DNA of 64,000 bases, from the NCBI GenBank assembly GCA_038659295.1, contig JASNGC010000003.1, forward strand, positions 62,001 to 126,000. Direction: 5' to 3'. The position numbers were made by a program, and so were the translations under genes. Position 1 is the first letter of the stretch, and each line of letters opens with the position of its first letter. The stretch comes from Enterocytospora artemiae (taxonomy: Eukaryota; Microsporidia). Of this stretch, positions 11,967-29,014 are shown piece after piece. Under the pieces are notes generated by a model that was not told where the DNA came from, ran no database searches, and saw nothing but the letters and a program-made list of their open reading frames with translations.

Positions 11967-12359
11967 ATGCCCACTACATAACACACATGTTATATTGCAG
12001 CATGTGACTTTTCATTGCTCATTACAAAAAATAAAAATAATGGTGTATTTGTGTAAATAATAAGTTTGATAATATCAATGTTGCAGGCATACGTAAAAAC
12101 ATTCTGTTCATTATCCTTAATACTTTGATGATTTGTGAGTATGTTAATAGATATTTTGTATATTCATTAACTGATAGAGCACCTTTATACTTTTTTCACT
12201 AGAAATATTTTGTGAATTATCAAATGATACCTATAATAACAAACATTCATATCTTTAAGGGGAATATAACTTGCTATTTACTTTAAACAATATTTATTTT
12301 TCTCTTGTTTGTTGTTTTTCTGAAACACTTCTATAAATTTTCAATGTAATATTAGAGAA
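11967..12359. other. gene-free spacer with TATA-like element, 393 bases
   Basis: Very AT-rich spacer before the 1220-aa secreted protein. TATAAATTTT lies about 30 bases before that ATG. No CCC motif is present near the ATG and no RNA gene is visible. Confidence 0.55.
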
Positions 12360-15300
12360 ATGATTTTGTTCTTTCTGTTAATTTATTCGATTGATAAATC
12401 TGGTTTTATTCAGCTTACAAAAAAGAAACAGGGCGTGCTGTTAGAAAGGCCAAATAGAAGTGAATCCATTGATAGAAAGACAAAAGTAAATACATCAGAA
12501 AAGAGAGGATTATCCAGGATAGAAAATCAAATCAGCAGTAGTAATAATTTCTCTAAGAATAATTCATCAAATCTAGTTGAACCAAGTAATTCTGATAATA
12601 GCACAAAACAGAATAATCTATGCAACTTCGTTGCTCAGTATGAAACGAACAAAAATCTCGATGAAACTCAGAAACAAGCATACAACAAACTGTTAAATAC
12701 TCACTACAGACAAATACTTCTTTGCAAAAACAGCGTGACTCACCCAAAAGTTCAATTGATAAATAATTCATCAGACAACTATATAACAAGCATGAAAAAT
12801 ACTGCACCGGCAGAGATTCAGGAAGATTCTTCAAAAGTGGTTGTGGAACCAATTTCACACTTTCCTATCAAACCAGTCGATATAATGGAACCAAGAATTG
12901 AGAATAAGGTGGTTAATGTTCTCACATCATCCAATAAGACCGCCGACAACTGTACGGAAGGCTCCAGAAGCATGCCTCTTAAAGTTGATGTAAATAATCA
13001 TCAAGCTTCTTTTCAACCATATGTAAGAATAGTTCCAAATCAAATTATTACTCCTTTGGTTCAGACTATACCCGTATTAACAACCACAGTGTATCAAAAT
13101 ATTTTACAACCAACTTACATCAGAAAGGAACCAAAATTCGACTATAGTGATGAAACTATACACATTTGCAGTCATGAACATCCATATAATTGCCCGGAGC
13201 ATACAGCCAGCACAAAAAATGAAGGATTGAGTAATGAAGATATTTCAGAAATTAAGAAAGAAATTCTGAAATTAGTCCCGGAAGGTAATGGAAAACAAAC
13301 TCAAATGAGGAACAAGCAAAAAATCGTAATTGTGGATGATTTAAGGGACGATAAATGCGATGATAGTAATGACTCAGAAATTGATAAAGAGAAGGTAAGA
13401 ACTATCAAAACAATCACTCAACTAGAATCTACAAAAACTATTGTTCGAACAGTGTCAAAAAATGAAGAGACTGCTATTGGAAGTCCTAACCTGATTAATA
13501 ATCAGGGAATTATTAATACAAAACCAGGGCCACAGATTACCTATGGCTATTCTACTCCTCTATCTAGTTCCTTTTTACAGCAGCCAAGTATTAAAGTAAA
13601 GTTAATAGACAACCAGCCAAGAACCATAACAGTAACTATGAAGGAAACTCCTACAACCACAGTAGGTACCGAAACTTTCAATGAGATGCCAAGAACAGTT
13701 TCAATTATGCAGAATCATCAAATGGATATTCCAAGGAATTCAAATGAAAAAATGATTCTAAAGGAGCTAAAGAGACTACAAAAGGATTTGAAATGCAGTT
13801 CTAATGAGGGCTTAAATGAAATTAAAAAAATGTTGCTTGAAATATTAAGATGGAACCAGGTCAAGGGTGATGGACACAGAGAAACTTATTTAGAGGATGC
13901 TTCTGCAGTTGAAGAAAATGGCATAATGGAAGAGGAATATAAAATGGCCTTAGAAAAGGACAATCCGAACAACGATAAAGTGAAACCAGATAAAGCTAAA
14001 ACTAAATTGGCTACAGCTATTTCTATGGGTCAACCATTACCTAATTTAAATAGAACTAATATGTCCCTTGCACATTCCAAATCACTTAGAAAAGCTCGGG
14101 GCACCAGCAAAGGGCAAAGGCTTAATAAAACTAATCCAGCAGATGATCAAGAGTGTAGTCAATTGATTGATAAAGGCAGTAAAATAATGAACACCAGGCA
14201 GAGAAAACATATTTCCAAGGATGTTATAAAAGAAAACAAAGATAACATGAATGTTCCTAAAAATGATGTTTTGAGCAAAAAACAAGCTGGAAGTAATGTT
14301 AGTCCATTTAGAGAAATATTGGACGAAATAGCCAGCTATTCCAGAACAAAAGTAAATTTGTTGAATCAAAATAATTCTAATTTGTTGGGTCAGGATGGCC
14401 AGACGAATGGGAATGTATCAGCCAGTACCGCTGATAAGAAGATTCCTAATACCAGTACTGATACGAGTATCAATACAGATAATATTGAAAACAAATTCCT
14501 TATGGAATTGTTAAGATTCATTAATTCTGATAAACGAACGGAAGAAGATATTCTAAAAATACTCACATTTATCAGACTAATAAAAAACAGGAATAACAGT
14601 ATAACTGCTACAACAAACGAAAGATATAAAGATTATCAGTCTTCTGAGGCCTTGAAGTATGAGACTGTATCTCAAAACTTGAAAGACAAAGATATTACTT
14701 ATTTATCAATAAAGCATGAGCCTTATCATTCCATATCAAGTAATATTATATCGTCAAAAAATCCAGCGATATTAACAAAGACAGATATGTTGGACAATTT
14801 CCCATACATAACAACTATAGTAGTAGACTCTATTTCCTCCTCAACATTTCCTGCCGACAGTATTTCGACTTTTACAGTTAGAAATACAGTAACTGTTACC
14901 ACCACTATTACTCGAATGCCAGATGAAGAGATAGGTTCAAAGGGTAAAAATACAAAGACCATCAGTAAGGACATTACTACAACAAACCCATACACTTTAA
15001 ATATTCCTCCAAGACCCCACTCCATCCCTTCTGAAAAATCAGTCTTAGAGAAAATTAAATCACTTTTGGGAATTGAAGATACAAAAAAATACTCTGAAGA
15101 GGAAATAAAACAGCTGGAAGAAAATATAGAAATAAAGGATAGGGAAATAAGAAAACTAAAGGATATGGCAAAGAAAGATTTGGAAATGGCAGAAAAAAAA
15201 GAAATACAAAAAGAGAAAAATGTTGATATTTTGAAAGACAAATTTAAAAGCATGAGCGAGTCAGAGAACATTCATGAAGCTGCTGAATGCATCAATGTTG

Positions 15301-16022
15301 TTGTGAAGCCAAAAGAAGTAAAGATGAGGTCAAAAGTATCCAATAATGGAGAGAATCAATCAGCAGGTTGGGATAAAAAGGATTACAGATCGGACTCATA
15401 CGAAGAGAAATTTCAAAGATCTAATTTTGGAAAATTAGGGACACTGAAAGAAGAGCCAGAGAGTTCTTTGCAAAGCAAAATAAAAAATCAAATTTCTTTG
15501 GATAAAGATGACACAATTCACATCAACTCTGATTTTTCAAAGATTCCAGTGATTACAATCATTAAGACAATTTACTCAAAAGGAAATGCATCTGGTGTGG
15601 ATGATGAAAGTAGGAACACCAAAACATCAAATACTACCAATTCTGCTAGTCTACCCTCAACAATCCCAAGGCCCAAATCAGTCTTCTATGCCAAAAGCGA
15701 CGATAGAGTAGCAATTTTAAACGGGTCGGAGGCAACCAAAACCATTACAATAAAGCCCAATACAGTAATTAATTGCAAAAAAGATGAATTGGAAAATAGT
15801 ATTTCTAGTGCTTCATCAGATAATGGGGATATAAAAGATACTACGGATGTGGATTTTCCAAAGAAGCCAGAAAAAGCGATTAAGAAACCAACAAAGGAGA
15901 TTAAATCTGCTGAAATTAAACTATCTGATATTTCAGGAGATAAACCCAGAGATATAAAGATATCGATACCATTGGGGCAGTTAAAGGAAGTTATAGATGA
16001 AATAAAGGAAGGAGAGAAATAA
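12360..16022 (+). CDS. predicted secreted low-complexity protein, 1220 aa
   Basis: I do not recognise this protein. It starts MILFFLLIYSI, a short hydrophobic run fit for a signal peptide, and then becomes a long, hydrophilic, Asn/Ser/Thr/Lys-rich chain with no clear globular domain. Visible elements are a Cys/His patch (HICSHEHPYNCPEH, about residues 267-280), several Thr/Val strings such as VRNTVTVTTTITRM, and a charged coiled-coil segment (EEEIKQLEENIEIKDREI region, about 910-960). Similar Thr/Val strings occur in the 23305-26025 product. It has no transmembrane helix after the N-terminus. The start lacks a CCC motif but has a TATAAA-like element upstream. Size and composition would suit a spore structural protein, but nothing in the sequence proves this. 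Confidence 0.75.
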   Translation: MILFFLLIYSIDKSGFIQLTKKKQGVLLERPNRSESIDRKTKVNTSEKRGLSRIENQISSSNNFSKNNSSNLVEPSNSDNSTKQNNLCNFVAQYETNKNLDETQKQAYNKLLNTHYRQILLCKNSVTHPKVQLINNSSDNYITSMKNTAPAEIQEDSSKVVVEPISHFPIKPVDIMEPRIENKVVNVLTSSNKTADNCTEGSRSMPLKVDVNNHQASFQPYVRIVPNQIITPLVQTIPVLTTTVYQNILQPTYIRKEPKFDYSDETIHICSHEHPYNCPEHTASTKNEGLSNEDISEIKKEILKLVPEGNGKQTQMRNKQKIVIVDDLRDDKCDDSNDSEIDKEKVRTIKTITQLESTKTIVRTVSKNEETAIGSPNLINNQGIINTKPGPQITYGYSTPLSSSFLQQPSIKVKLIDNQPRTITVTMKETPTTTVGTETFNEMPRTVSIMQNHQMDIPRNSNEKMILKELKRLQKDLKCSSNEGLNEIKKMLLEILRWNQVKGDGHRETYLEDASAVEENGIMEEEYKMALEKDNPNNDKVKPDKAKTKLATAISMGQPLPNLNRTNMSLAHSKSLRKARGTSKGQRLNKTNPADDQECSQLIDKGSKIMNTRQRKHISKDVIKENKDNMNVPKNDVLSKKQAGSNVSPFREILDEIASYSRTKVNLLNQNNSNLLGQDGQTNGNVSASTADKKIPNTSTDTSINTDNIENKFLMELLRFINSDKRTEEDILKILTFIRLIKNRNNSITATTNERYKDYQSSEALKYETVSQNLKDKDITYLSIKHEPYHSISSNIISSKNPAILTKTDMLDNFPYITTIVVDSISSSTFPADSISTFTVRNTVTVTTTITRMPDEEIGSKGKNTKTISKDITTTNPYTLNIPPRPHSIPSEKSVLEKIKSLLGIEDTKKYSEEEIKQLEENIEIKDREIRKLKDMAKKDLEMAEKKEIQKEKNVDILKDKFKSMSESENIHEAAECINVVVKPKEVKMRSKVSNNGENQSAGWDKKDYRSDSYEEKFQRSNFGKLGTLKEEPESSLQSKIKNQISLDKDDTIHINSDFSKIPVITIIKTIYSKGNASGVDDESRNTKTSNTTNSASLPSTIPRPKSVFYAKSDDRVAILNGSEATKTITIKPNTVINCKKDELENSISSASSDNGDIKDTTDVDFPKKPEKAIKKPTKEIKSAEIKLSDISGDKPRDIKISIPLGQLKEVIDEIKEGEK

Positions 16023-16134
16023 AGATTTTTTGAGTGAATAAATACAATTGAAAACACACAGTTTCCTCAAATGCTATTTACTTGTTAAGTAACAATTACT
16101 TATATTTATTGTTTTTTAAAAAATTTGCCCTCGA

Positions 16135-18177
16135 ATGATGGCAATGAAGAGTGAGTCCATAAGAGTAGATTTATCTCTATTTGATGAAGCAACAAAAAAG
16201 TTTGAAAATTTCAACAATATCGAGATTAACAACGAAAAGGCCTCAACTACAATAAACGATTTGGCAAAGATATACTTTACCATCCACAACATTCTTGCTG
16301 CTAAGGTCGATGGACTATTGGTGGACTTGACCTATAAAATTCATCAGAGCTGCAAAATTCAACTTTTCAATTTTGACAATGATGAAGGCAAGAAGGTATT
16401 CTGGCATTCGTCTGCGCATATTCTGGGAAATGCGTTGGTCAATCTGTACAACTGTAAGCTGGTCAAGGGACCGGCTACCCAGGAAGGATTCTTTTACGAT
16501 ATTGATGTAGATAAGCCAATTACGGAAGCTATGTTTAAGGATATTGAAAAAGAAATGAACAGACTTGTGAGAAAGTCAACAAGATTTGTGAGGGAAATTA
16601 TGAGTAAGGAGGACTTGTTGAGCTATTATAAGGATAATGAATATAAGAAATATTTCATAGAGAAATCGGTTGAGGATGAGGCTACGGTGTACGTAAATAG
16701 ACGTGGTGATAAGATGAAGACTTCGTCAGTCGATGCAAGGATTAATGAAGATGTTGTGAATTCTGTTTCTAACATTTCTTTAGAGCCAGAGTTTCTGGAT
16801 CTATGTAGAGGCCCACACATTAACAATACTAGCATGGTAAAGGCCATTAAAATTGTAAAGTCGAGTAGCTGCTATTTCCTAGACGACTGTAAAAACAACA
16901 GTTTGCAGAGAATTTACGGCATTTCATTTCCATCAAAGGATAGACTAAAAGAATATAATGAGCGTATTATGAGAGCAAAGGAAATGGACCATAGAAAGAT
17001 AGGGAAGGAAATGGATATGTTCTTCTTCCATGAATACTCGCCAGGATCTTGTTTTTGGCTGCCAGCGGGTGCTCATGTTTATAACAAATTGATGGAATTT
17101 TTAAGAAGTGAATATCGAAAAAGAGGATTCCAAGAGGTTATTAGTCCCAATATGTATTCTATTGAGCTATGGAAAGAGTCTGGCCATTATGAAAATTATA
17201 AGGAAAATATTTATATGATTGAAAATGAGGAGTTTGGACTCAAACCAATGAATTGTCCTGGACATTGTGTAATGTTTAAAAACTCGGAACATTCTTTCAA
17301 GGAATTGCCCCTTAGGTTTGCTGATTTTGGAGTATTACATAGAAATGAATGCAGTGGATCGCTTACAGGATTGACCAGGGTTAGAAGATTTCAGCAGGAT
17401 GATGCCCATATATTTTGTATGAGGAATCAAATTGAGTCGGAAATCATCAATTGTCTGGATTTTTTGAATTCAGTGTATAAGCTGTTTGATTTTAAGTATG
17501 ACTTGCTTTTAAGCACTCGACCTGAAAAATTTATGGGGGCTATTGAAGAATGGGATCAGGCTGAAGAATCCTTAAAAAGAGCCATTGTTGATAGTGGTAA
17601 GGCATTTGTTCTGAATGAGGGCGATGGAGCGTTCTATGGTCCCAAAATAGACATTATATTGTATGATGCCCTAAATCGTAAGACCCAATGTGCTACTATC
17701 CAATTGGATTTCCAGCTCCCACAGAGATTCAACCTCAAATTTAAAGCAACAGATGGAACGTATCAGACGCCTGTGATGATTCATAGAGCTATTTGTGGAA
17801 GTATGGAACGTATGATTGCCATTATTGTCGAGAATTATGGTAAAAAGCTTCCATTTTGGTTGTCCCCACGTCAGATTGCTCTCGTATCTATTTATGCGGA
17901 GGACTATGCGGCAAATCTGAAACTAAGACTTTCTGAATTTGAGGTGAAGGTTTATGATGATAAGGGTGACACATTGAGTAAGAAGGTTAGGAAGGCAGAG
18001 GTTGATGGATATCGAATAATCTGTGTGCTTGGAAGAAAAGAGGCTGAAAATGAAGAGGTTAATGTTAGATTAAACTGTGGAGCTACTACTAGCTATAGGG
18101 TTGATGAGTTTGTCAGGATAGTGAGGGAACTTGCTGATAAGAAGATGGAGTTTGAAGAGATTAATGGCAATAAATAA
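16135..18177 (+). CDS. THS1: threonyl-tRNA synthetase, cytosolic
   Basis: This 680-aa class II synthetase begins with a TGS domain (about 10-75). The editing domain follows with HSSAHILGNAL and DLCRGPHI. The catalytic core shows motif 1 near ISPNMYSIELW, the zinc-site segment KPMNCPGHCVMF, motif 2 ADFGVLHRNECSGSLTGL then TRVRRFQQDDAHIFC, and motif 3 ICGSMERMIAIIVENY. The C-terminal anticodon-binding domain starts near PRQIALVSIYAEDY. The protein lacks the eukaryotic N-terminal extension. The first ATG follows TTGCCCTCGA, the CCC motif. A second and a third ATG lie one and three codons later, so the exact start could shift by up to three codons. Confidence 0.97.
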   Translation: MMAMKSESIRVDLSLFDEATKKFENFNNIEINNEKASTTINDLAKIYFTIHNILAAKVDGLLVDLTYKIHQSCKIQLFNFDNDEGKKVFWHSSAHILGNALVNLYNCKLVKGPATQEGFFYDIDVDKPITEAMFKDIEKEMNRLVRKSTRFVREIMSKEDLLSYYKDNEYKKYFIEKSVEDEATVYVNRRGDKMKTSSVDARINEDVVNSVSNISLEPEFLDLCRGPHINNTSMVKAIKIVKSSSCYFLDDCKNNSLQRIYGISFPSKDRLKEYNERIMRAKEMDHRKIGKEMDMFFFHEYSPGSCFWLPAGAHVYNKLMEFLRSEYRKRGFQEVISPNMYSIELWKESGHYENYKENIYMIENEEFGLKPMNCPGHCVMFKNSEHSFKELPLRFADFGVLHRNECSGSLTGLTRVRRFQQDDAHIFCMRNQIESEIINCLDFLNSVYKLFDFKYDLLLSTRPEKFMGAIEEWDQAEESLKRAIVDSGKAFVLNEGDGAFYGPKIDIILYDALNRKTQCATIQLDFQLPQRFNLKFKATDGTYQTPVMIHRAICGSMERMIAIIVENYGKKLPFWLSPRQIALVSIYAEDYAANLKLRLSEFEVKVYDDKGDTLSKKVRKAEVDGYRIICVLGRKEAENEEVNVRLNCGATTSYRVDEFVRIVRELADKKMEFEEINGNK

Positions 18178-18461
18178 TCCTATGTTGGTTCAATTGTATT
18201 TTTGTAAGCAGTATTGCGTTTTCTTAAACATAACAAAATGGGTTGTGCGATAATGTGATCAAAATACTTCTCTTTTTGGCAAGATATGTTATCCTTCAGT
18301 ATTGATGAATGTATAGAAATTTTTTGACAATCCAATGATGACTTATAGGCCAAAACCTCCTATTAAAAATCATAAAATAGGTATGATATCGAATGAAAGA
18401 TACATTTTGTTAGTGGTAAAACTAAATTAATAATTTATAAAGGTATTTTTAAACAAGCAAT

Positions 18462-19565
18462 TTACTTCAGATCTCTTCTATATACCTTTCTAACTTCCTT
18501 ACACGGTTCAGAACATTCCTTGTCTACACAGACACAAACATCGACAATATCATCTTCTCTCAATGGATATGTATTATACAAAATTATCTGATCAAATGAT
18601 TTAAGTTCTGGAATTTTTTTCTGTAAAAATGTTTTAATATCCATAGCCTGTTTTGCGGCAATATCTGCAATTATTTGTTTTATCGAATCAATACCTTTTG
18701 CTTCATCCTTTGGAGAAATAGTTTTGTCGATGAAAAATCCTGAAACGCTCATTCTTGAATTGGAAATTAAATCGGTGAAAGATGAAAACTCCTTACCCTC
18801 GAAATTGCCCGTTTTATCTATCAATTTGCCATCCTTCACATTGAATTCTAATTTTCCCCAAAAGTCGGTATATATATCATTTTCATTTCTGTAAACTGAT
18901 ATTCCCGAAATTGGTGGTAGCTTCTTGGTGATGTCCCCTTGATTATTAACAATATAGGTAAATAATGCCATGGTTGTGGGGATTAACTTGATCTTATCAA
19001 GACTATTGGAATGGTTTGTAGGCTCCATCAAATTACTTTTAGAATTGGATATGTTGTGAGTTACAGAAGACAAAGTGGTTATATTGTATCCTGAGTCACT
19101 ATAGCTTTTTTTTGTGGTCATTTTATGGTCATTTGACTTATAAATATTCCTATCCTTTTTGAAAGCCCTCTTCAAAATTTCTAAGGGTCCCTCAGGCAAG
19201 TTTGGATTAACTGATTTTTTCTTAAAGTTGGGGTAATCAAGATATTGACTCGGAATATCAGGAGTTTCGATTTTTGAATCTAGTTGATGATCTTTATTGT
19301 TTTGTTTTATAAAACGTTGGTCATCTATATAATTTTGCTCATTAAAGTATGTTCCGTCTGGATATGGTTTGATAAAATGGCTCTTGTATTTTATTATTAT
19401 TGGAATTTTAGGTTCAACAATTGATTTTGCTAATTTATGACCAATTTCAGTAACAACCCCTGGTTTTAGGTCATCTTCACCCATATGGTCTGTTCTAAGT
19501 ATTTCAACCATAACCATTTCGTTTTTTGAAAAAATACCAGCCAATAGAACAAAAATTAGTTCCAT
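18462..19565 (-). CDS. predicted secreted protein with VY-GK-DKxGxF domain and Cys-rich tail
   Basis: The 367-aa product starts MELIFVLLAGIF, a good signal peptide. The middle is Lys/Asn/Ser-rich. A compact segment at about 223-258 reads SVYRNENDIYTDFWGKLEF then KDGKLIDKTGNFEGK. The C-terminus (343-359) is CVCVDKECSEPCKEVRK. Both segments have clear counterparts in the much larger product at 23305-26025 (VYKDGDVYKDYSGKI, LSDKSGAFKGQ, and CPCDADGSCVNPCEELR). The two genes are therefore probably paralogues or share exchanged domains. I do not recognise the domain. The start has no CCC motif. The gene lies in the secreted-protein region with two neighbours of similar character. Confidence 0.8.
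   Translation of the reverse strand: MELIFVLLAGIFSKNEMVMVEILRTDHMGEDDLKPGVVTEIGHKLAKSIVEPKIPIIIKYKSHFIKPYPDGTYFNEQNYIDDQRFIKQNNKDHQLDSKIETPDIPSQYLDYPNFKKKSVNPNLPEGPLEILKRAFKKDRNIYKSNDHKMTTKKSYSDSGYNITTLSSVTHNISNSKSNLMEPTNHSNSLDKIKLIPTTMALFTYIVNNQGDITKKLPPISGISVYRNENDIYTDFWGKLEFNVKDGKLIDKTGNFEGKEFSSFTDLISNSRMSVSGFFIDKTISPKDEAKGIDSIKQIIADIAAKQAMDIKTFLQKKIPELKSFDQIILYNTYPLREDDIVDVCVCVDKECSEPCKEVRKVYRRDLK
18792..18899 (-). other. shared domain, copy in the 367-aa protein
   Basis: This DNA encodes the VY-x-D-x-Y-x-D-GK-G-L-x-DK-x-G-x-F segment (residues about 223-258) that recurs at about 24525-24635 in the neighbouring secreted gene. Identical positions include V-Y, D-x-Y-x-D, G-K, G-x-L-x-D-K and G-x-F-x-G. 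Confidence 0.65.
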
Positions 19566-19966
19566 GGTTTGAAATGTTATGTAACCTATTTAAAGTAAAG
19601 GATTACAAATATGAAACATATGAAATACAAAATCTGAAAAAATTAAAAACAAATAACACCTGACAAGACATATGAGTGGTTATTTGCCGGAGACGGCTGG
19701 CTCTATTATTTTATTTATCAAACATACATCAACAATGCTCTTGAAAATATAATATTTGTTTGAAGTTGTAAATCAGGAGCAAATAAGTTATTAAAATAAT
19801 CTAGATATTCATCATCTTAACGTTTATACCCTTACTTTTCTTTAAATGTATAAAAAGCTTTGTAGGTAAAATTCGCAGAGACCTGTTGAAGATAAAGGGA
19901 AGATTTTGTGCAATACTATGGAAAACTGTAGTATATTTTCAAGTATCATTTTTCTAAACTCATTTA
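19566..19966. other. gene-free spacer, 401 bases
   Basis: Spacer between two minus-strand secreted-protein genes. A 26-codon frame near 19672 contains a small GC-rich patch, but it has no start motif and I do not call it. Otherwise AT-rich and featureless. Confidence 0.55.
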
Positions 19967-21607
19967 TTATGATGGGGCAATATAACCACTCAGATTATAA
20001 ACCTGCTTTTTCATCGATTCCTCTTTGGGAAATGTAATTTTAGCTTCCACATACATGCTATTGGCCTTCTCTGAGGACGGATTGGGGATATTTTTAAAAA
20101 CGCTCAAAATATCACCAAATGATGTGGCATCTTTTTGATCCCTAGAACTATCATTGTTTTTTTCAGGTTTTTTAGATTTATCCTCATTCTTTTTCTCTTT
20201 GGCATTCTTATCATCAATCCTGTCTATCTTTTTGGCTGATGTTTCCTTATTCTTATGGTTCCCTTTACTATCCTTCTTTTCAGATGAAGGCATTTGTATT
20301 TTTATAAACGGAAAGTCTTTAGTTGTTTGAACAGTCTTATCTGATTTAGATCTATTGGCTGGTTTCTGTGAACTAACCGTTTTACCACTATTTTTTTCGT
20401 TCATTCTTTTCTCCTCAGCCTTCTTCTTTCGCTCTCTCTCCTCAGCCTTGATCTTTTCCTTTTCTTCATCTGTCTTCGCATCACTCAATTTCTTCTCATA
20501 CTTTTCCTTGGCTTCCTCCTCCTTCTTTTTCTCTTTTTCCTTTAACTCTTTCTCCTCAGCCTTCTTCTTTCGCTCTCTCTCCTCAGCCTTGATCTTTTCC
20601 TTTTCTTCATCTGTCTTCGCATCACTCAATTTCTTCTCATACTTTTCCTTGGCTTCCTCCTCCTTCTTTTTATCTTTTTCCTTTAACTCTTTCTCCTCAG
20701 CCTTCTTCTTTCGCTCTCTCTCCTCAGCCTTGATCTTTTCCTTTTCTTCATCTGTCTTCGCATCACTCAATTTCTTCTCATACTTTTCCTTGGCTTCCTC
20801 CTCCTTTCTTTTTCTTTCTGCTGCAGAATTTGTTTGGAAAGTAGTTTTTGCTTCTGTAGATGTCTTACTTTGTATCGATTTATTCGCCTTGGAATCATCC
20901 GAAGCTACCTGTTTTGTTTGTGTAGAATTATTTTCCATTTGTTTTTTTGCCTTTTCCAATTCCTTCTTTGCCTTCTCGACCTCCTCTTCTTTCTGTTTAA
21001 TTTGCTTCAAATCAAACTCTCTCTTTGCCTTTTCTGCTTTTTCAAATTCTCTTTTCGCCTTTTCCTGTTCAAATTTATTCTCTTTTTTCACATCATCTTT
21101 TTTGACCTCCTTACTGTTTCCAGGAATATTAACTGTGGGTTTGGTCTTGTCGCTTTTGCTCACATCCCCCTTCTTTTCTTCTTTCTTAGTAACAGTAGTA
21201 TATGGTTCTAAGATAGTAACTTTTTTCAGCTTCACCAAGACCTGTGTTTTTTTATCATCAATGATTACTTCAGTCCAGAAAGGTTCTGCTTTGTCTTCTG
21301 TTCCTGGAAATCCAAAAAGATTATTCTTTGAGTCAATCTTCAACTCTGATATGTTTGGAGACGTGACCAATGCTTGTTGGGCCCGAGTATCCCCAGCATT
21401 TGATGAATCTATCGTGTTCTGTGGAATGTTTACATCCTTAGGCTTCTCATTGTTTGCTTTATTGTTTGAGGCTAAAAATGGATCTGCTAACTCGACATTA
21501 TCAATCTGTGGCAGGTTAATTGCTAAAGACGAACTATCCAACTTCTCTGGAACGAATATCTCCGATTTGATCAATGCTGCTAAAGATAAAATGACCGAGT
21601 GGAACAT
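19967..21607 (-). CDS. predicted secreted Lys/Glu-rich repeat protein, 546 aa
   Basis: The protein starts MFHSVILSLAALIKSEIF, a probable signal peptide. An N-terminal non-repetitive part (about 20-150) contains FWTEVIIDDKKTQVLVKLKK. It is followed by about 250 residues of highly charged helix. Within this are three nearly identical 47-residue repeats (EEEAKEKYEKKLSDAKTDEE and onwards), encoded by 141-bp DNA repeats. The C-terminal 50 residues are again non-repetitive (SMYVEAKITFPKEESM). The charged part should form a long single helix or coiled coil. I do not recognise the protein. No CCC motif precedes the ATG; TTTTTATAAACAAATA does. The opposite strand is also open for 421 codons here, which is a by-product of the composition. 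Confidence 0.75.
   Translation of the reverse strand: MFHSVILSLAALIKSEIFVPEKLDSSSLAINLPQIDNVELADPFLASNNKANNEKPKDVNIPQNTIDSSNAGDTRAQQALVTSPNISELKIDSKNNLFGFPGTEDKAEPFWTEVIIDDKKTQVLVKLKKVTILEPYTTVTKKEEKKGDVSKSDKTKPTVNIPGNSKEVKKDDVKKENKFEQEKAKREFEKAEKAKREFDLKQIKQKEEEVEKAKKELEKAKKQMENNSTQTKQVASDDSKANKSIQSKTSTEAKTTFQTNSAAERKRKEEEAKEKYEKKLSDAKTDEEKEKIKAEERERKKKAEEKELKEKDKKKEEEAKEKYEKKLSDAKTDEEKEKIKAEERERKKKAEEKELKEKEKKKEEEAKEKYEKKLSDAKTDEEKEKIKAEERERKKKAEEKRMNEKNSGKTVSSQKPANRSKSDKTVQTTKDFPFIKIQMPSSEKKDSKGNHKNKETSAKKIDRIDDKNAKEKKNEDKSKKPEKNNDSSRDQKDATSFGDILSVFKNIPNPSSEKANSMYVEAKITFPKEESMKKQVYNLSGYIAPS
20411..20811 (-). repeat. three tandem 141-bp repeats inside the Lys/Glu-rich gene
   Basis: CTCCTCAGCCTTCTTCTTTC recurs at 20411, 20552 and 20693, exactly 141 bases apart. 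The unit encodes 47 residues rich in Lys and Glu. Copies are almost identical at DNA level; the third diverges at its last 20-30 bases. Such identity points to recent duplication or ongoing gene conversion. Confidence 0.95.
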
Positions 21608-22141
21608 TATTTGTTTATAAAAAGAAAATAATTAAATATAAAATGAGTTTCAAATGCATAAACAGTTTCATGTTACAAACAATATGATGAGACAATAATT
21701 GGATTGTAGAAATCTACATACAGTTTCCGTGTGTGAATCTTTTTATTTGAAAGAATTGAGCTTCGATATAACCGAATTTTTGTATTTGTCTATACTACAA
21801 TGAACATTGTATCCCTTTAAACACAAATCTGCATTTAATCTACACTTAAAACGACCAAGGCACAGGCTGATATATCCTCTTAATGGTCTTAAAAATATAG
21901 ATTTGTACAGAACTATCGTGTGCTTGTATACTTTTTGAGCATATAAACTCTTTATTGATATACGCTTACATTTATAAAAAATAATTGTCGAATTTGGAAG
22001 ATTAATTTTTAAACATTCTATTTTGATACTTTGATAACAACTACTCTATAATATCAGATATGCTTTACTAATATATTCAATTAATCCATTTGACATTATT
22101 GATAAAAATTGATTTTAGAAAAATCTTTCTGAAATACCCAT
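21608..22141. other. gene-free spacer, 534 bases
   Basis: AT-rich spacer between two divergent genes. It holds a TATAAAC-like element close to the minus-strand gene and a CCC motif directly before the plus-strand gene at 22142. I see no other feature. Confidence 0.55.
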
Positions 22142-22621
22142 ATGAGTAGTTCTACAACTGGGCAATTTTGTGGTGCAGCACTAGACAAAGGATTTACATT
22201 GGCCATGTCGGTCCCGAATATTAAGAATGTCTATGATTCTTGTATATCGGTTCCGTCTGATAAAGCAGATAATGTAACTTGCACGGAGAGTATTTATTCT
22301 GAAATCTGGACGCCTTTTTGTGTCGCGATATGGTATGTTTGTGGTCTCTTTAGCAATTCAGAGACTCAGGCCATTGAGTCATACAGATTTTATGAACTTC
22401 CAGGTTTATTTGTAGGAAATTTCGTGAAATATCTTCGTAGTATGATTACAATATTGGACGGCATTCTGCTCTATCTAGGACATTTTGAGTTTCTGATAAT
22501 TTTTCTTATGTTAGCTGTTACCTTATATAATTTGGGAATACTTGGTAATTTTAAACATATTGTTATGGGTGTATGTTTTTTATTCTACGTAACAGTGGTT
22601 ATTTTGATCCTGTACAATTAA
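22142..22621 (+). CDS. small multi-pass membrane protein of unknown function
   Basis: The 159-aa product is not recognised. Its N-terminal half is polar with five cysteines (10, 34, 47, 60 and 67). The C-terminal half is hydrophobic, with probable membrane segments at about 115-133 (FEFLIIFLMLAVTLYNLGI) and 139-157 (HIVMGVCFLFYVTVVILIL), and weaker ones at about 56-70 and 98-113. There is no signal peptide. The start context AAATACCCAT carries the CCC motif, unlike the secreted genes on both sides. It is probably a genuine housekeeping-type gene. Confidence 0.7.
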   Translation: MSSSTTGQFCGAALDKGFTLAMSVPNIKNVYDSCISVPSDKADNVTCTESIYSEIWTPFCVAIWYVCGLFSNSETQAIESYRFYELPGLFVGNFVKYLRSMITILDGILLYLGHFEFLIIFLMLAVTLYNLGILGNFKHIVMGVCFLFYVTVVILILYN

Positions 22622-23304
22622 CCAGTGATTCTTCTGTGCTTCGCATTAGCAACTATCTACCCATGGCCAAATAATGAAGTTTTATATGCAATAAAGAATT
22701 AGTTAGTTCATGAAGGTTTTGGGGATTTTTGTTATCAAGTCTATTTATGGGGGTATGTATCTGCTTAGAAGCAGTGCATCCTTGTGTTTATGGATTTCAA
22801 TCAATAATTTACCCCGATAACGAGATTGATTAGGAATTCTTTATCTTTAAAAGATAGTGATTTTGGATATTATTTTTGGAAGTGCAGGTAATTTATCAGT
22901 TACATATATGCCATATCAATTATCTGGGCTGAAATATTAGTCGCTATTTTCTAACTAAGCTTTTACACCATATCTTAAACCTAGCTAAGTTCATAGGTAA
23001 TGCAAATCAATCTTCCTAATGGATATAGTCATTAATAATAAATCGATATAATAATTTAAAAATCTATATTCCATCATTTTCAATGTTTTATCAGACCCAC
23101 TTAGACCTTGAAGATAGTTATGTAATGTGGAACAATAACGATTATAATGATAAAGTATTGTAATTTTTAGGATAAGGGCTTTACAAGTATTCATAACAAA
23201 CTAAAGGGTGACTATTATCAAATTGTATATTATACCCTCAAGGTTAGTAATTCAAAAATTTAGCTAATATAGTTTATTAATTATTTTCTGATATGTAAAT
23301 GTGA
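22622..23304. other. long spacer, 683 bases, one doubtful small ORF
   Basis: The spacer is AT-rich. A 67-codon minus-strand frame at 22991-23194 starts 13 bases after a CCC sequence, but it has no recognisable motif and a random-looking composition. A 37-codon plus-strand frame at 22710 has no start motif. I call neither. Confidence 0.5.
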
Positions 23305-26025
23305 TTATACAATTTCACATCTTAACTCTTCACATGGGTTTACACATGATCCATCAGCATCACATGGACAATCAGGTACACACTCAATTCCATTAGCACC
23401 CTCATCCACTATAACTGTTTTATTGATTGTCACAACCTCATCATCTTCACATTTTACAGGTTTCTCTGGAATTTTTTGTATTGTTGCTGGAACATTTTCA
23501 GAATTTTTTTGGTTCTTTGGCTTGTTTTCTTTAAAAATATTAGGTTTCAATTTTAAATCGTCTGGTTTCTTCTTGTCACACTTCTTTTTTGGTTTGTAAG
23601 GTTTTTGAGATGAAATGGTCTCAAATTCGGTAATTGTTCTATCAACAGTCTTTGTAATGGGGTCTTTCTCTATTGTACTGAATATTGTGATTGGCTCCTG
23701 GGAAAGAATTTCAGGAGGAAGTGTTTTAGTTTTTGTGCAAGGAGCCTTTGTAACTGTCTTATAATCTATAACCGTTGATAATGATAATTGTGTAGCTGTT
23801 TTAAAGACTGTTGTGGTGACTGGTGGTTCAGTAATGGTAGTAACATCAGGCTTGATATTTGTTTGGGACAGCTCCTCTCCACAATTTGAATCTTTCCTCG
23901 TCTCCAGATCATCCATCTTCTCTTCACAATCACTAGGTGATATCTCTTCGGCTCGTTCCGGCTCTTCATTACACTTTAAATCATACTTCAACTTTATGGA
24001 CTTGAAAACAATTGGAGGTTGCTCTGACTGATTCTGACTTATGTTCTGCTGCTTGGTATTTTTATGGTTATCTGGTCCATTATATTCATTTGAATTTATA
24101 GGCATTCCTCCAGAGACATTTGAACCACCTGCAGAGCTAGTGGGTGTTGATCCTCCAGAGACATTTGAACCACCTGCAGAGCTAGTGGGTGTTGATCCTC
24201 CAGATACATTTGAACCACCTGCAGAGCTAGTGGGTGTTGATCCTCCAGATACATTTGAACCACCTGCAGAGCTAGTGGGTGTTGATCCTCCAGATACATT
24301 TGAACCACCTGCAGAGCTAGTGGGTGTTGATCCTCCAGAGACATTTGAACCACCTGCAGAGCTAGTGGGTGTTGATCCTCCTATCGATGATGAAGCACTT
24401 GCCAATTTTTCAATATATTGCTTTTGTTGAGAACAAGTTGATTCGTCAACACTCTTGTCTTGAATAAGTCCCGTATCTGTAAGTTTACCTACATTTGGTA
24501 TCTCTGTCTTGGAGCATCCACAATCTTGACCCTTAAATGCACCAGACTTATCTGAAAGAACACCGTTTGTCATCGACATTTTAATTTTTCCACTGTAGTC
24601 TTTGTATACGTCTCCATCCTTATAAACCAAAACATTTTCAATATTCTTACAACTTGGACAAGTTTTAAGAATATTCTCGGCAATTTGACGGTCGATTGTA
24701 ACTGCAGAACTGATTTGTTCTTGCTTTTGTAAAATGTTAATTCCAACACTTGCTGCAATCGCCGATACTGATACTTGATTAATATCTGAGGGCATCGTTA
24801 TAGAACTGATTGAGCCTGTGGAAATGGATGGTGGATTGGAACTTTGTGATATTGAAGCATGTGCTGATGATGTCATAATACTAGAAGACATGGCTGAAGA
24901 CGTACTTAATGAGACACTTTGATTTAGCGTTGATGAAATAGTTGAAGACACACCTGATTGATAAGGTGATGTGGATGAAATTGAGGCATTTACACTCTGG
25001 ATAGCTGCTTGTGTGCCTGATGTGGAAACAGTTGGATCTTTTGTATCTGGTTTAGTGAACCCTACACTACTTGCTTGCTCTTGTAAAGTAGAAGTTCTTG
25101 AAACATCGCCCTTTGAATTAACATTGGAACCTTTGGAAGTAGATGCATTTAGCTCTTTTTCTTTTGAAGATGTTTTGGTTGCATCGATGGATTTATTACC
25201 ACTGTCACCCTTACTAGACTTGATTTCATCCTTCTTTGACTTCTCTTTATCATCTTTTTTAGACCTCGTCTTTTCCACCTTTGCTTCCTGGTCTTGTTTG
25301 GTCTTATCTTCTTTCTTTGATTTATCTTCTTCCTTCTCTTTCTTATTTATCTCTGCTTGCTTGGCCTTTTCTTCCTTCTTTGTCTTTGCTTGCTTAGCCT
25401 TTTCTTCTTTCTTTTCCTTATTTATTTCGGCTTGCTTGGCCCTCTCCTCCTTTTTTGCTTTGGCTTCTGCTTCCTTCTTCGGTTTTTCAGCCTTAGCCTT
25501 TTCTTCCTTCTTTGCTTTTTCCTCTTTTACCTTTTGTTCTCTTTGTGTTTTAGCTTCTTCATTTGCTTTTGTCTTCTCTTCTTTCTTTGCAACTTTAGCC
25601 TGATCCTCAGCTTTATTATCTGATTTTGGAGTTTTGGCTTTAGTATCAGTTTGTGGTGCCCCAGATTTTGGTGCTTTTCCATCTTTTCCTGCTGGTGTAG
25701 TACTACCAGCGGAAGGTGCTTCTGCCAATTTGATCTCTAAATCATTCACCGAGCTGTCAGGTAAATTGTTTGAAGAATTTTCTGATGCTTGGTCTGAATG
25801 CTCGACTAGATTAGTCCTGTTTGAAGTATTAAGAACTTTGGAGAAGTTAAATCCCAAAGATTCGGCTCTTTCATAAATCTGTGTTAATAACTGCTTACTA
25901 TTGTCTATATCCTTAAGAGATATCACAAATGAATTTCCATGTTTTGATTTTGAATCGCACTTTAGTGGAATAAAAAGTAATAAAACCAGGTGAATTACTA
26001 CATCTATCATTGTTTGGAAATGCAT
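23305..26025 (-). CDS. large predicted secreted mosaic protein (about 906 aa)
   Basis: I take the start at the ATG at 26025, because the next residues include IDVVIHLVLLLFIPLKC, a strong signal peptide. A longer frame runs back to 26112, and the ATG at 26010 is an alternative. The order of regions is: signal peptide, short N-terminal part (SFVISLKDID), a Lys/Glu/Ala-rich helix (about 25210-25600), a Ser/Thr-rich linker, the VYKDGDVYKDYSGKI domain shared with the gene at 18462, six GGSTPTSSAGGSNVS repeats, Thr/Val strings (VTTTVFKTATQLSLSTV), and a Cys-rich C-terminus (CVPDCPCDADGSCVNPCEEL). The layout resembles an extracellular structural or adhesive protein. I do not recognise the family. 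There is no CCC motif. Confidence 0.78.
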   Translation of the reverse strand: MHFQTMIDVVIHLVLLLFIPLKCDSKSKHGNSFVISLKDIDNSKQLLTQIYERAESLGFNFSKVLNTSNRTNLVEHSDQASENSSNNLPDSSVNDLEIKLAEAPSAGSTTPAGKDGKAPKSGAPQTDTKAKTPKSDNKAEDQAKVAKKEEKTKANEEAKTQREQKVKEEKAKKEEKAKAEKPKKEAEAKAKKEERAKQAEINKEKKEEKAKQAKTKKEEKAKQAEINKKEKEEDKSKKEDKTKQDQEAKVEKTRSKKDDKEKSKKDEIKSSKGDSGNKSIDATKTSSKEKELNASTSKGSNVNSKGDVSRTSTLQEQASSVGFTKPDTKDPTVSTSGTQAAIQSVNASISSTSPYQSGVSSTISSTLNQSVSLSTSSAMSSSIMTSSAHASISQSSNPPSISTGSISSITMPSDINQVSVSAIAASVGINILQKQEQISSAVTIDRQIAENILKTCPSCKNIENVLVYKDGDVYKDYSGKIKMSMTNGVLSDKSGAFKGQDCGCSKTEIPNVGKLTDTGLIQDKSVDESTCSQQKQYIEKLASASSSIGGSTPTSSAGGSNVSGGSTPTSSAGGSNVSGGSTPTSSAGGSNVSGGSTPTSSAGGSNVSGGSTPTSSAGGSNVSGGSTPTSSAGGSNVSGGMPINSNEYNGPDNHKNTKQQNISQNQSEQPPIVFKSIKLKYDLKCNEEPERAEEISPSDCEEKMDDLETRKDSNCGEELSQTNIKPDVTTITEPPVTTTVFKTATQLSLSTVIDYKTVTKAPCTKTKTLPPEILSQEPITIFSTIEKDPITKTVDRTITEFETISSQKPYKPKKKCDKKKPDDLKLKPNIFKENKPKNQKNSENVPATIQKIPEKPVKCEDDEVVTINKTVIVDEGANGIECVPDCPCDADGSCVNPCEELRCEIV
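24107..24376 (-). repeat. six perfect-length 45-bp tandem repeats (GGSTPTSSAGGSNVS)
   Basis: Six 45-base units run from 24107 to 24376 with no length variation. They differ at one synonymous position only: units 1, 2 and 6 have GAGAC and units 3, 4 and 5 have GATAC. Each unit encodes 15 residues rich in Gly, Ser and Thr. The array is a coding minisatellite, likely to vary in copy number between isolates. It is not a CRISPR array, since it has no spacers. Confidence 0.97.
24525..24635 (-). other. shared domain, copy in the large mosaic protein
   Basis: Encodes VYKDGDVYKDYSGKI followed by MTNGVLSDKSGAFKGQ and a CGC motif. It is the counterpart of the segment at 18792-18899 in the 367-aa secreted protein. 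Confidence 0.65.
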
Positions 26026-26218
26026 TTCTATTTTTAAAATGAACTGCTTACACTTGTGATACATGTTTGAAAAATATTGATCAAGTCTGTTTCTGTAAAT
26101 ATTACAAAACAATATGTGTTTTGGAAGTTAAACAGGTCCAAATATTTATTAACTTTCAGAGAAAAAAATACAGGAGTTATATATACCTTAAAAACTCCTA
26201 ATATAAAGCACCACAAAA

Positions 26219-27022
26219 TTAACGGATGAACTCTTTAAATACATTGTGGATTTCCTCAATAGTCTTAGAAACATCATAAGATTTGGTTATTTCAGTTCCT
26301 ATTATAATTTCATCAGCATCCAAAACCAGCTTTAAATTAGATAATTTTATACCGCCATCGACTCCAATCTTAAGATGCGGATATTTGGATTTGATATACT
26401 TGATTTTATCTGCACACTCCGGAATCATAGACTGCCCACCCATACCTGGATTGACTGTCATTATTAAACAAAATGTTGCCTGGGAGAGAATCCTATCTAG
26501 ACTGTTGTCGACCTTAATATTTGATAAAATTGACATATTTAACTTGGTTGGATCATTTACAGGTACCTGTATCATATCTACCTCGTTTCTATAATTCAAT
26601 ACGTCTTTGATGGTGCTTCTATTCCTAGGGCAAATTTGTATTACATTCAAGCCGTATTCATTTGGTTTAAGAGCTACACCCACCTCTATTGACAGCTTCA
26701 AATTACTTAAATGGCTTTTAACTGAAGAAAACTGATCTGGATCAACAATAATTCTGGAAACCTTTTTAAGATTGATTTGATCCAAAACATCAAGTGGATC
26801 GTGAATCATAAAGTGTATTTCAACAATAAAGTCAAAATTGCTCAGAATTTCATTGATAATCTCTGGTCCAAAACTTATATTCTTTACTCCGTAAGATGTA
26901 TCTATAACATCAATGTGAATGTGGGTGATTAAGTTCTCTCTTAAAATCTGCAAACTCTCATAAAGTCGTAGGAAGTGAATGTTTAGAATACTCACTGAAA
27001 TTGGTTTGGTGGTGTTTATCAT
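26219..27022 (-). CDS. RPE1: ribulose-phosphate 3-epimerase with an internal insertion
   Basis: This 267-aa TIM-barrel enzyme interconverts ribulose-5-phosphate and xylulose-5-phosphate in the pentose phosphate pathway. Catalytic landmarks are present: SILNIHF, HIHIDVID (His36 and Asp38 as metal and acid-base residues), EIHFMIHDP (His70), CLIMTVNPGMGGQS and IGVDGGI. The usual DG-x-F after HIDVM reads DTSYG. Between GVALKPN and the MTV-PG-GGQ loop there are about 35 residues more than in typical epimerases (267 versus about 225-240 aa). The gene sits among secreted-protein genes but is a normal metabolic enzyme. No CCC motif precedes its ATG. Confidence 0.9.
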   Translation of the reverse strand: MINTTKPISVSILNIHFLRLYESLQILRENLITHIHIDVIDTSYGVKNISFGPEIINEILSNFDFIVEIHFMIHDPLDVLDQINLKKVSRIIVDPDQFSSVKSHLSNLKLSIEVGVALKPNEYGLNVIQICPRNRSTIKDVLNYRNEVDMIQVPVNDPTKLNMSILSNIKVDNSLDRILSQATFCLIMTVNPGMGGQSMIPECADKIKYIKSKYPHLKIGVDGGIKLSNLKLVLDADEIIIGTEITKSYDVSKTIEEIHNVFKEFIR

Positions 27023-27165
27023 CTATGACCAATCTCCTAATACTATTGATAACCAGTGTATTAACAAATAACATAGCTTTAGGAATAGCAGACAAGCCAA
27101 TGAACATTTGCCATTATCTACCAATAGGATACAGTTTATTTGATTTATGCGATTGAGTTCCGTAA

Positions 27166-27238
27166 GTCTCCGTAGTGTAGTGGTTATCACGTTAGCTTAA
27201 CACGCTAAAGGTCACGAGTTCGATCCTCGTCGGAAACA
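27166..27238 (+). tRNA. tRNA-Val(AAC)
   Basis: The acceptor GTCTCCG pairs with CGGAAAC except for one C-A mismatch at the third pair. The A box is TAGTGTAGTGG. The anticodon stem TTAGC/GCTAA closes the loop TTAACAC, giving anticodon AAC. The T arm has ACGAG/CTCGT around TTCGATC. A run of T follows after the discriminator A. It is the second valine tRNA in the window. Confidence 0.92.
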
Positions 27239-27533
27239 TTTTTTAATTCAAAAAAACTTGTTTCTATATTATTTTATTTATAGTAATATTACCCATCACT
27301 TGATTTCCAATTATTAATACTATCTCCATTATTATTCTATCAGTTAAACTTTTTGACCAATGCTGCTGTGTACTTTCAGAATTATTGGTAAATCGATATC
27401 GGAAATCTTTGTTATTTTATTTGTTTCTATCGTATTTATACATTATATCAATCCTCCTAATTTTAAGGAGTATACTGCTATTAGTCTATTTTTGATTAAA
27501 AAATGTATATAATTAAATTTTCATTTCTAAATC

Positions 27534-27683
27534 ATGAATTTCTTATTTACTCTTTTGACTGCTGCATTTGCTTCTGCATCGTTTTTCAGTAATTCCGGCA
27601 ATAATACTTCTTCTGATTCAGAAACTTTAAAATCTACGACACCAAATCCAAATCCATCTACTGAATCTTCTGAGAAAGAATGA
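27534..27683 (+). CDS. small predicted secreted protein, 49 aa
   Basis: An ATG at 27534 opens 49 codons ending in TGA. The product starts MNFLFTLLTAAFASASFF, a textbook signal peptide with a likely cleavage after ASA. The mature part of about 33 residues is rich in Ser, Asn, Thr and Pro and acidic at the end. TATATAATTAAATTTTC lies 10-25 bases before the ATG, and AATAAA follows the stop. There is no CCC motif, as in the other secreted genes here. It lies 295 bases after tRNA-Val and 200 bases before another small secreted gene. Confidence 0.6.
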   Translation: MNFLFTLLTAAFASASFFSNSGNNTSSDSETLKSTTPNPNPSTESSEKE

Positions 27684-27883
27684 GACTCAATAAACTATAC
27701 TTAGCAATATATCATTTTACCAACAATAATCTATGTTAAGCCTGTCTGTACCTTTAAAAAACAGTTTATCCGATTAATAATCAGTGATTGGCCTTATTTT
27801 TATGGCCTTTCATCAACACATCCTGAAACAAATCATCTTTGATTGGTAAATAAATTTATAAATTTAATTTTTCAGACATTCTG

Positions 27884-28285
27884 ATGGCCTATTTCTTTTT
27901 TGCTCAGTTAGTGCTTGCGTATGCTCACATAGAAGCTAGCCCATTCCTTCAGATGATTCAATCACACTCTCCATTACAAAATAGTTTAGTTGAAGAAAGG
28001 AATATTTCTGCTCCAGGATCAAAAACTAATAACCCTGGAAGTCCAATAAATAATTACAGCCTCAATAACATGAAGAGAATTCCCAGAGAATATGATAATC
28101 TGATACTGTACCACCCTAGAGACACTGCCTCCAATGACCAAGTGATCAATTCCTTTAACAGCACTAACCATTTATCTTCGAGTTTAATTGACGATTACTC
28201 AGCTCTTCTAAAGCCAAGGATAGAGTTATCAACGAAAACCACTAAGCCCGGGAAGCCTAGAACTTTAGAAAACGGTAGAAATTGA
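27884..28285 (+). CDS. small predicted secreted protein, 133 aa
   Basis: The product starts MAYFFFAQLVLAYAHIEAS, a probable signal peptide. The rest is hydrophilic, rich in Asn, Ser and Pro, with a basic end (TKTTKPGKPRTLENGRN). No cysteine is present and no domain is recognised. TTTATAAATTTAATTTTC precedes the ATG by about 10-30 bases; there is no CCC motif. The gene is in line with the small secreted genes at 27534 and 28640 on the same strand. Confidence 0.65.
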   Translation: MAYFFFAQLVLAYAHIEASPFLQMIQSHSPLQNSLVEERNISAPGSKTNNPGSPINNYSLNNMKRIPREYDNLILYHPRDTASNDQVINSFNSTNHLSSSLIDDYSALLKPRIELSTKTTKPGKPRTLENGRN

Positions 28286-28639
28286 TAGATTCAAGGTTAA
28301 ATGACAATAAATAATTTATGTAACAATTGTTGGCTTGTAATTATTAACCAGTTTTGTTTATGGATAAAACATTTATCAACAATTTTTTGTTTTAGATGAA
28401 TGCATTTCAATAAAACATATCAATATATCAAATAATCTAAAATGTGAATTAAATTGTACCTGAACCTTATAATTATCATTATTTCAATAAGAGTTACTGT
28501 TAAAATTTTGAATATCACCTGCTCACTAAAGTTTGGAATCCGAAACACAACGTTGTTTCATTGTGATACGCAATACCTTAGATGATTGATGAATTTTGTA
28601 ACATAATTTTATATAAAAAAATATCTTCTGCTTTTGATA
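28286..28639. other. gene-free spacer, 354 bases
   Basis: AT-rich spacer between two small secreted-protein genes, with AATAAATAATTT near its start and TTTATATAAAAAAATA about 20-30 bases before the next ATG. No frame or RNA gene is visible. Confidence 0.55.
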
Positions 28640-29014
28640 ATGCTTTTGTCAATATTAGGATTTGCCAACTTTCTTTTAGCCACTGATCAAGAGAGTGAGA
28701 ACAACGACTCTGTCGAACAAAATCAACAACCAGAGATGGCATCCGAAAGCCCGTCTGAGCCATCAGCCGCTACAGAAGACAAGCCAGCTTCCTCTACAAA
28801 TAGGCTTCCAATAGTAAAGTGTAACCAGCATAAATATGTTACCAAGACAAAAACTACCACTACCAAGCAGAATGAATCATCCAAGAAGCCTCCTCAATCA
28901 CATACTCATGAATGTATTAGAGAAAAAGCAGTAACATTGGATGGAAAGCTTCTTTTGAGTCAGGAAGATAAAGCTAATGATGATGTGGCTACTACAGGAG
29001 CAAGTAGTGCTTAA
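28640..29014 (+). CDS. small predicted secreted protein, 124 aa
   Basis: I place the start at the ATG at 28640; the frame is open six bases further back only from a TTG. The product begins MLLSILGFANFLLATDQES, a signal peptide. The mature part is acidic and Ser/Pro-rich and then carries a Cys/His segment (VKCNQHKYVTKTKTTTTK and HTHECIREKAVTLDGK) with two cysteines. The Thr/Lys strings resemble those in the 12360 and 23305 products. No domain is recognised. TATATAAAAAAATA lies upstream, and there is no CCC motif. Confidence 0.65.
   Translation: MLLSILGFANFLLATDQESENNDSVEQNQQPEMASESPSEPSAATEDKPASSTNRLPIVKCNQHKYVTKTKTTTTKQNESSKKPPQSHTHECIREKAVTLDGKLLLSQEDKANDDVATTGASSA

Follow-up and report, generated by a model that had tools for sequence, protein, structure and literature searches.

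The region at positions 12360-29014 of a 64,000-nucleotide stretch of the Enterocytospora artemiae genome (the window; C3:62001-126000 of a 3.0 Mb genome in five contigs) encodes seven predicted proteins, each named here by the lower coordinate of its open reading frame (ORF). Two promoter classes are present in this genome: one carries the CCC signal of microsporidia just before the ATG, and the other is CCC-less and carries TGAAAC or its reverse complement GTTTCA, the core site of the fungal regulator Ste12; the CCC-less class is enriched in secreted and membrane genes and includes those of the polar tube proteins PTP1 and PTP2. As read from upstream sequence, the Ste12-type promoter has good statistical support from one genome. 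The region is likely to be a single patch of a Ste12 regulon, dispersed over the genome, that comprises genes of secreted proteins and of the invasion apparatus. For microsporidia the seven proteins are of an ordinary kind, being for the most part secreted, fast-evolving and lineage-specific.

Upstream element of the region's genes

In core genes the microsporidian CCC signal usually stands directly before the ATG; this signal is absent from all seven genes of the region, and five of them have TGAAAC or GTTTCA 39-85 nt before the ATG (Table 1), with two exact sites at 19967 only. A VPS9-domain gene at window 1104-1916 is an exception among core genes, as it has no CCC and a site at -51. The same element precedes the polar tube genes: PTP2 (PF17022, 137 bits), the genome's one PF17022 match, is encoded together with an adjacent Pro-rich PTP1 candidate of 258 aa at C3:607870-609984; the PTP1 candidate has paired sites at -52/-41 and PTP2 has a site at -54. 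A common programme for the region's genes is supported on a basis which the first-pass annotation had not seen, namely a Ste12-type upstream element shared by five of the seven, by PTP1 and PTP2, and by other secreted genes.

Statistics of the promoter classes

The motif was first spotted by eye and was therefore tested without choosing it beforehand, in a 280-kb sample with 173 ORFs of at least 100 aa that were called mechanically, some of which are perhaps not genes. Signal-peptide scores come from a von Heijne-type matrix used together with hydropathy; as controls, the PTP1 candidate scores 6.3 and PTP2 9.5, and five housekeeping proteins score from -0.3 to -8.9. When the 1,780 strand-collapsed 6-mers of the 100-nt upstream stretches are ranked, TGAAAC/GTTTCA comes first, being found before 18/34 signal-peptide ORFs and 17/139 others (p 1.3e-6, Bonferroni 0.0023); with the region removed the counts are 13/29 and 17/139 (p 1.6e-4). 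TGAAAC is also first of 120 strand-collapsed permutations of its letters for sites located 30-80 nt before the start of a signal-peptide ORF, where 20/233 of its sites fall as compared to 1.0% of random positions.

CCC is present in 105 of the 173 sampled ORFs, and the site is nearly exclusive with it, occurring in 1/105 CCC ORFs and 21/68 CCC-less ORFs (p 5e-9). GGG is found in 2/24 ORFs of the TGAAAC class, and TATA elements are not class-specific (TATAAA in 5/24 vs 11/105, p 0.18). This tracking of CCC absence favors a reading in which the element is an alternative core promoter of CCC-less genes generally, with secretion as a correlate and no developmental regulon; it is also favored by site-bearing genes that are non-secreted, namely the VPS9 gene and four ORFs at paired loci described below (L033, L038, L041 and L045). 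Such a reading is considered quite improbable, since 47/68 CCC-less ORFs are without the site and since half of the paired loci precede a strictly defined signal or anchor start.

Paired sites across the genome

Paired sites were counted over the whole genome, with the reversed pattern as a control. Head-to-head pairs (TGAAACN3-8GTTTCA) number 6 vs 1 for the control, and head-to-tail pairs (GTTTCAN3-8GTTTCA) 15 vs 3. The outside-sample test comprises 18 paired loci (5 head-to-head and 13 head-to-tail, two sites sharing one locus); the PTP1 pair and a pair at C2:104456 were left out as in-sample, and tail-to-tail sites are likewise not included. An ORF starts 30-80 nt downstream at 15/18 loci (random 5.7%, p 1.5e-16) and a strict signal/anchor start is found at 9/18 (random 1.0%); CCC occurs in 0/15 promoters of the paired loci with an ORF (p 2e-6). 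The 18 loci are not fully independent because one anchored-protein gene, together with its paired promoter, is present in two copies, at L044 (C2:190.6 kb) and at L047 (C3:808.5 kb, some 6 kb short of the contig end), which suggests a recent duplication. Downstream of the pairs lie, among others, an ORF for a Lys/Ser-rich secreted protein (L032) and further orphans that are secreted or anchored; at L035 (C2 ~480 kb) three consecutive lectin-like ORFs have TGAAAC/GTTTCA near their starts, the lectin label having been given by eye and not confirmed by Pfam.

The position of these pairs (15/18) and their promoter class (0/15 with CCC), both obtained outside the sample, argue against the view that nothing unites the genes, in which the region is just a patch of secreted orphans that evolve fast and the motif is a statistical accident. 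Clustering in the sample is indeed weak: signal-peptide ORFs are neighbors somewhat more often than expected (11 vs 6.3, p 0.023), and secreted patches recur, as at C2:96-108 kb (L030, L012), which by the same rule has 7 signal-peptide ORFs in ~12 kb vs 5 in the region. An accident is nonetheless very improbable. The dense secreted region described by the first-pass annotation is a modest cluster and not a unique feature, because the C2 patch is denser; there, the ORFs at 96739, 98566, 102816, 104508 and 106371 lack CCC and have TGAAAC/GTTTCA once or twice.

Ste12 as the probable regulator

The genome encodes Ste12 in a 396-aa ORF, the true start of which, judged by alignment, is probably Met22; the PF02200 match (183 bits, E 3.6e-54) lies at C2:157750-158073. 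A TGAAAC lies 71 nt before this inferred ste12 start (L031), a possible sign of autoregulation. The motif KKQKVF-x-WYS-x-PHD is invariant in all 16 rows of an alignment of the query with 15 sequences chosen from 120 listed hits (13 named microsporidia, Encephalitozoon and Nematocida among them, the P0002 fragment and the fungus Basidiobolus). Among the matches listed, the closest is the metagenome sequence P0002 (94% identity across 66% of the query), and the closest named proteins are from Ecytonucleospora, Nucleospora and Enterospora; many of the listed database matches are annotated by name as microsporidian Ste12. These relatives, together with the PTP2 match, bear out the microsporidian origin first assumed for this DNA. 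The AlphaFold model of Ste12 is weak overall (mean pLDDT 49.7) and a fold search with it gave nothing at E<=0.001; a search by sequence for solved relatives gave none at E<=0.1 and one match at 0.7. Tec1 (PF01285) had no match in the genome, a null result which is uninformative because the control genomes gave no match either.

In yeast the Ste12 consensus is TGAAACA (PMC7017024), and Ste12 binds pairs of sites cooperatively, head-to-tail being the commonest arrangement in vivo (PMC12712937). The Saccharomyces cerevisiae regulon of Ste12 and its pheromone response elements, which serves mating and invasive growth, resembles the system described here in the Ste12 DNA-binding domain and in upstream TGAAAC cores, some of them paired; it differs in that the putative targets here are polar tube and secreted parasite genes, that paired sites here lie close to the ATG at a spacing that hardly varies, and that head-to-head and head-to-tail pairs are enriched here while tail-to-tail pairs are not. 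This last difference, and the fact that the likeness to yeast pheromone response elements is one of sequence only, lend something to the alternative that TGAAAC is a real promoter element read by a factor other than Ste12. The alternative is unlikely in our judgment, as the genome has a Ste12 whose DNA-binding domain is strongly conserved and the 6-mer that headed a ranking made without choosing it beforehand is the Ste12 core itself.

The STE12 gene of Encephalitozoon cuniculi has already been annotated (PMC2474625), and in the open-licence literature searched, as represented by partial texts, no report on microsporidian Ste12 targets was found. The CCC/GGG and AAATTT-like signals described for microsporidia (Peyretaillade 2009, PMC2803860) are likewise short and close to the ATG, and differ from the TGAAAC class here, which is without CCC. 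The excerpt of that paper contains neither 'ste12' nor any word beginning 'gaaac' or 'tttca', TGAAAC itself not having been a search term there.

Several observations weigh against a Ste12 regulon as the link between these genes. In the region, 23305 and 27534 are without an exact site and have one-mismatch forms only (23305 has AGAAAC at -30, which is -69 from Met14, and its true start is probably Met14 or Met19). In the sample, 22/34 signal-peptide ORFs are without a site at -75..-30 (12 with CCC, 10 with neither), and ten ORFs scored as lacking a signal peptide have a site in this interval, among which PTP2 and several others look secreted or membrane-bound by eye; site-bearing genes show no significant clustering (5 adjacent, 3.1 expected, p 0.17). 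Genome-wide, tail-to-tail pairs, which in yeast are the best sites in vitro, show no enrichment (3 vs control 3), the four paired-locus ORFs named above are without signal or anchor, and 3/18 pairs fit no ORF start: L034 lies outside the 30-80 rule, its histidine phosphatase ORF (PF00328) having single sites at -73 and -47, and L039 and L046 have no fitting ORF. Beyond this genome, a CCC or GGG signal has been reported for 1,591/1,996 E. cuniculi genes, and for more after start correction, the genes without it being mostly ascribed to wrong start calls; a supplement legend of the same paper indicates CCC/GGG signals for abundant spore proteins (PMC2803860). The dichotomy of CCC and TGAAAC may be limited to some lineages, because the E. 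cuniculi signals are so widespread.

Proteins of the region

Open frames of 49 to 1220 aa are present for all seven genes, as first annotated (Table 1). The signal peptides assigned to all of them are clear in four (18462, 23305, 27534 and 28640) and borderline in 27884 and 19967; the N-terminus of 12360 is hydrophobic and has no cleavage site. The low-complexity description, measured for the six proteins other than 27534, is apt for 19967, 28640 and 23305, partly so for 12360, holds to a low degree for 18462 and fails for 27884. As first noted, two proteins share Lys/Glu-rich stretches, 19967 and 23305 being the two richest among the 173 sampled ORFs; Thr/Val strings had been seen in several, and a strict test is passed by 12360 only. 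The proteins were described as unrecognized, which agrees with the Pfam scan, run on the same six, where no family was found at cut-off; Med9 and DUF3829-like matches were weak, fell below the cut-off and were set aside. Secretion and lineage specificity are supported for most members. The small ORF 27534 is considered only a putative gene, because many small intergenic ORFs look signal-like by the hydropathy rule (21/95 of those of 40-99 aa).

Table 1. Genes and exact Ste12 core sites of the region, in window coordinates, with signal-peptide scores and low-complexity fractions
Coordinates	Strand	Feature	Signal peptide (score)	Low-complexity fraction
12360..16022	+	1220-aa orphan; hydrophobic N-terminus, K/S/N-rich, 10 Cys, pI 8.8, Thr/Val strings	doubtful (-3.5)	0.30 (moderate)
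16135..18177	+	threonyl-tRNA synthetase (ThrRS); core gene, with CCC signal		
18462..19565	-	367-aa secreted protein; C-terminal ~180 aa conserved, ending CxC-x4-C-x3-C-x-E-V-R	clear (5.0)	0.19 (low)
19967..21607	-	546-aa Lys/Glu-rich protein; about three 47-residue repeats, no Cys	borderline (1.6)	0.63 (highest of the six)
22142..22621	+	159-aa protein with two transmembrane segments; with CCC signal, outside the group		
23305..26064	-	919-aa secreted protein; K/E-rich part, domain shared with 18462, six 15-aa Gly/Ser/Thr repeats, C-terminal CxC-x5-C-x3-C	clear (7.8)	0.58 (strong)
26219..27022	-	ribulose-phosphate 3-epimerase (Pfam scan)		
27534..27683	+	49-aa ORF, putative gene; no exact site, no CCC	strong (9.0)	
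27884..28285	+	133-aa orphan	borderline (3.1)	0.00
28640..29014	+	124-aa secreted low-complexity protein	clear (6.1)	0.60
12321..12326	+	TGAAAC, -39 from 12360 ATG; exact match, no CCC		
19612..19617	-	GTTTCA (gene strand), -52 from 18462 ATG		
21647..21652	-	TGAAAC, -45 from 19967 ATG		
21665..21670	-	TGAAAC, -63 from 19967 ATG; same orientation as the -45 site		
27824..27829	+	TGAAAC, -60 from 27884 ATG		
28555..28560	+	GTTTCA, -85 from 28640 ATG		

The proteins had been tentatively proposed to be one co-evolving family that assembles together; a single shared family is rejected, because 18462 and 23305 are the sole homologous pair, and the group is better described as one pair with apparently unrelated orphans. 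The domain which the first-pass annotation had seen in these two is real: they are homologous over ~100 residues (E 6e-8) and have in common a colinear C-terminal motif, CxC-x(4-5)-C-x(3)-C-x-E-[VIL]-R. Judged by sequence, 23305 looks like the same protein as 18462 enlarged by the K/E-rich part, the six 15-aa repeats and Thr-rich stretches. Genome-wide paralogue searches covered 12360, 18462 and 23305 (and not 19967, 27534, 27884 or 28640); 12360 had no paralogue, and 18462 and 23305 each match only themselves and one another. The one outside relative is P0001, a 287-aa metagenome protein with 38% identity to 18462, which has both the domain and the Cys motif and a weakly signal-like N-terminus (score 1.9); it was the single match of 18462 in a database rich in microsporidia. 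For residues 440-570 of 23305, none of 609 candidates was a homologue at E<=10, in a database holding many microsporidia, and the AlphaFold model of the 18462 domain is weak overall (mean pLDDT 49).

PTP1 is known as a Pro-rich, acidic protein encoded beside ptp2, and PTP3 as an acidic protein of >1100 aa with few or no Cys (PMC10229552). The region was also considered as a PTP1/PTP2 cluster, which is rejected as PTP2 and the PTP1 candidate lie ~520 kb away. Like PTP1 and PTP2, the region's proteins are mostly secreted and five of their genes have the same upstream element; they differ in that the six scanned by Pfam have no PF17022 match and that their compositions are not those of Pro-rich, acidic PTP1 types encoded beside ptp2. 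Identification of 12360 as PTP3 fits its length and is rejected on its Cys content and pI (Table 1). Spore wall proteins of the SWP1/2 type are secreted, contain tandem Gly/Ser repeats and localize to the spore wall; 23305, with its six copies of a 15-aa G/S/T repeat, is a possible candidate for this type. The ricin-B-lectin-like (RBL) secreted family (PMC9224602) has no domain match in the six region proteins scanned, and some ORFs elsewhere in the genome that look RBL-like (L012 6371, L035; labeled by eye, as above) share the element. The putative 'spore-structure or host-facing' role first suggested is consistent with PTP1, PTP2 and other secreted genes sharing the upstream element.

The few interspersed core genes of the first-pass annotation (ThrRS, the epimerase and the small two-transmembrane protein) are confirmed. 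A 43-aa ORF with a signal-peptide-like start, absent from that annotation, is found at window 27025-27156. Next to the region, window 30395-31249 encodes a 284-aa secreted, single-copy orphan with a CCC signal and no TGAAAC element. Window 37925-38923 and 39050-41233 encode two further orphans with hydrophobic N-termini, CCC before the ATG, no Pfam match and no TGAAAC/GTTTCA in the 60 nt upstream.

Proposed mechanism and implications

In the proposed mechanism, the conserved fungal Ste12 encoded by the parasite would act on the second promoter class, which in this genome is marked by the lack of a CCC initiator and by one or two TGAAAC/GTTTCA sites, typically ~40-65 nt before the ATG, and is enriched in genes of secreted and membrane proteins, PTP1 and PTP2 among them. 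Based on its conserved domain and the yeast data, Ste12 would bind these sites, probably often as a pair. The genes would then be switched on jointly, most likely while the spore and its invasion apparatus are built, as PTP1 and PTP2 suggest; the products are predicted to enter the secretory pathway and to end up in the spore wall, in the polar tube or at the interface with the host. Transcripts of ptp1 and ptp2 increase after 24 h in E. cuniculi (PMC3629993).

A broader proposal, which we consider evenly balanced between right and wrong, is that microsporidia have kept the fungal regulator of mating and invasive growth, Ste12, as the master switch for their invasion apparatus and secretome, with the CCC-less class having recruited polar tube genes, secreted lineage-specific genes, lectin-like genes and possibly ste12 itself. 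The proposal bears on how microsporidia time the production of their spore wall and polar tube. Ste12 is linked to invasion in plant-pathogenic fungi; if the proposal is true, this link would extend to the most reduced relatives of the fungi. A promoter class defined by sequence, together with a conserved transcription factor, is directly testable in any cultured species, and offers a route from DNA alone to new spore and secreted proteins where evolution is too fast for homology to succeed.

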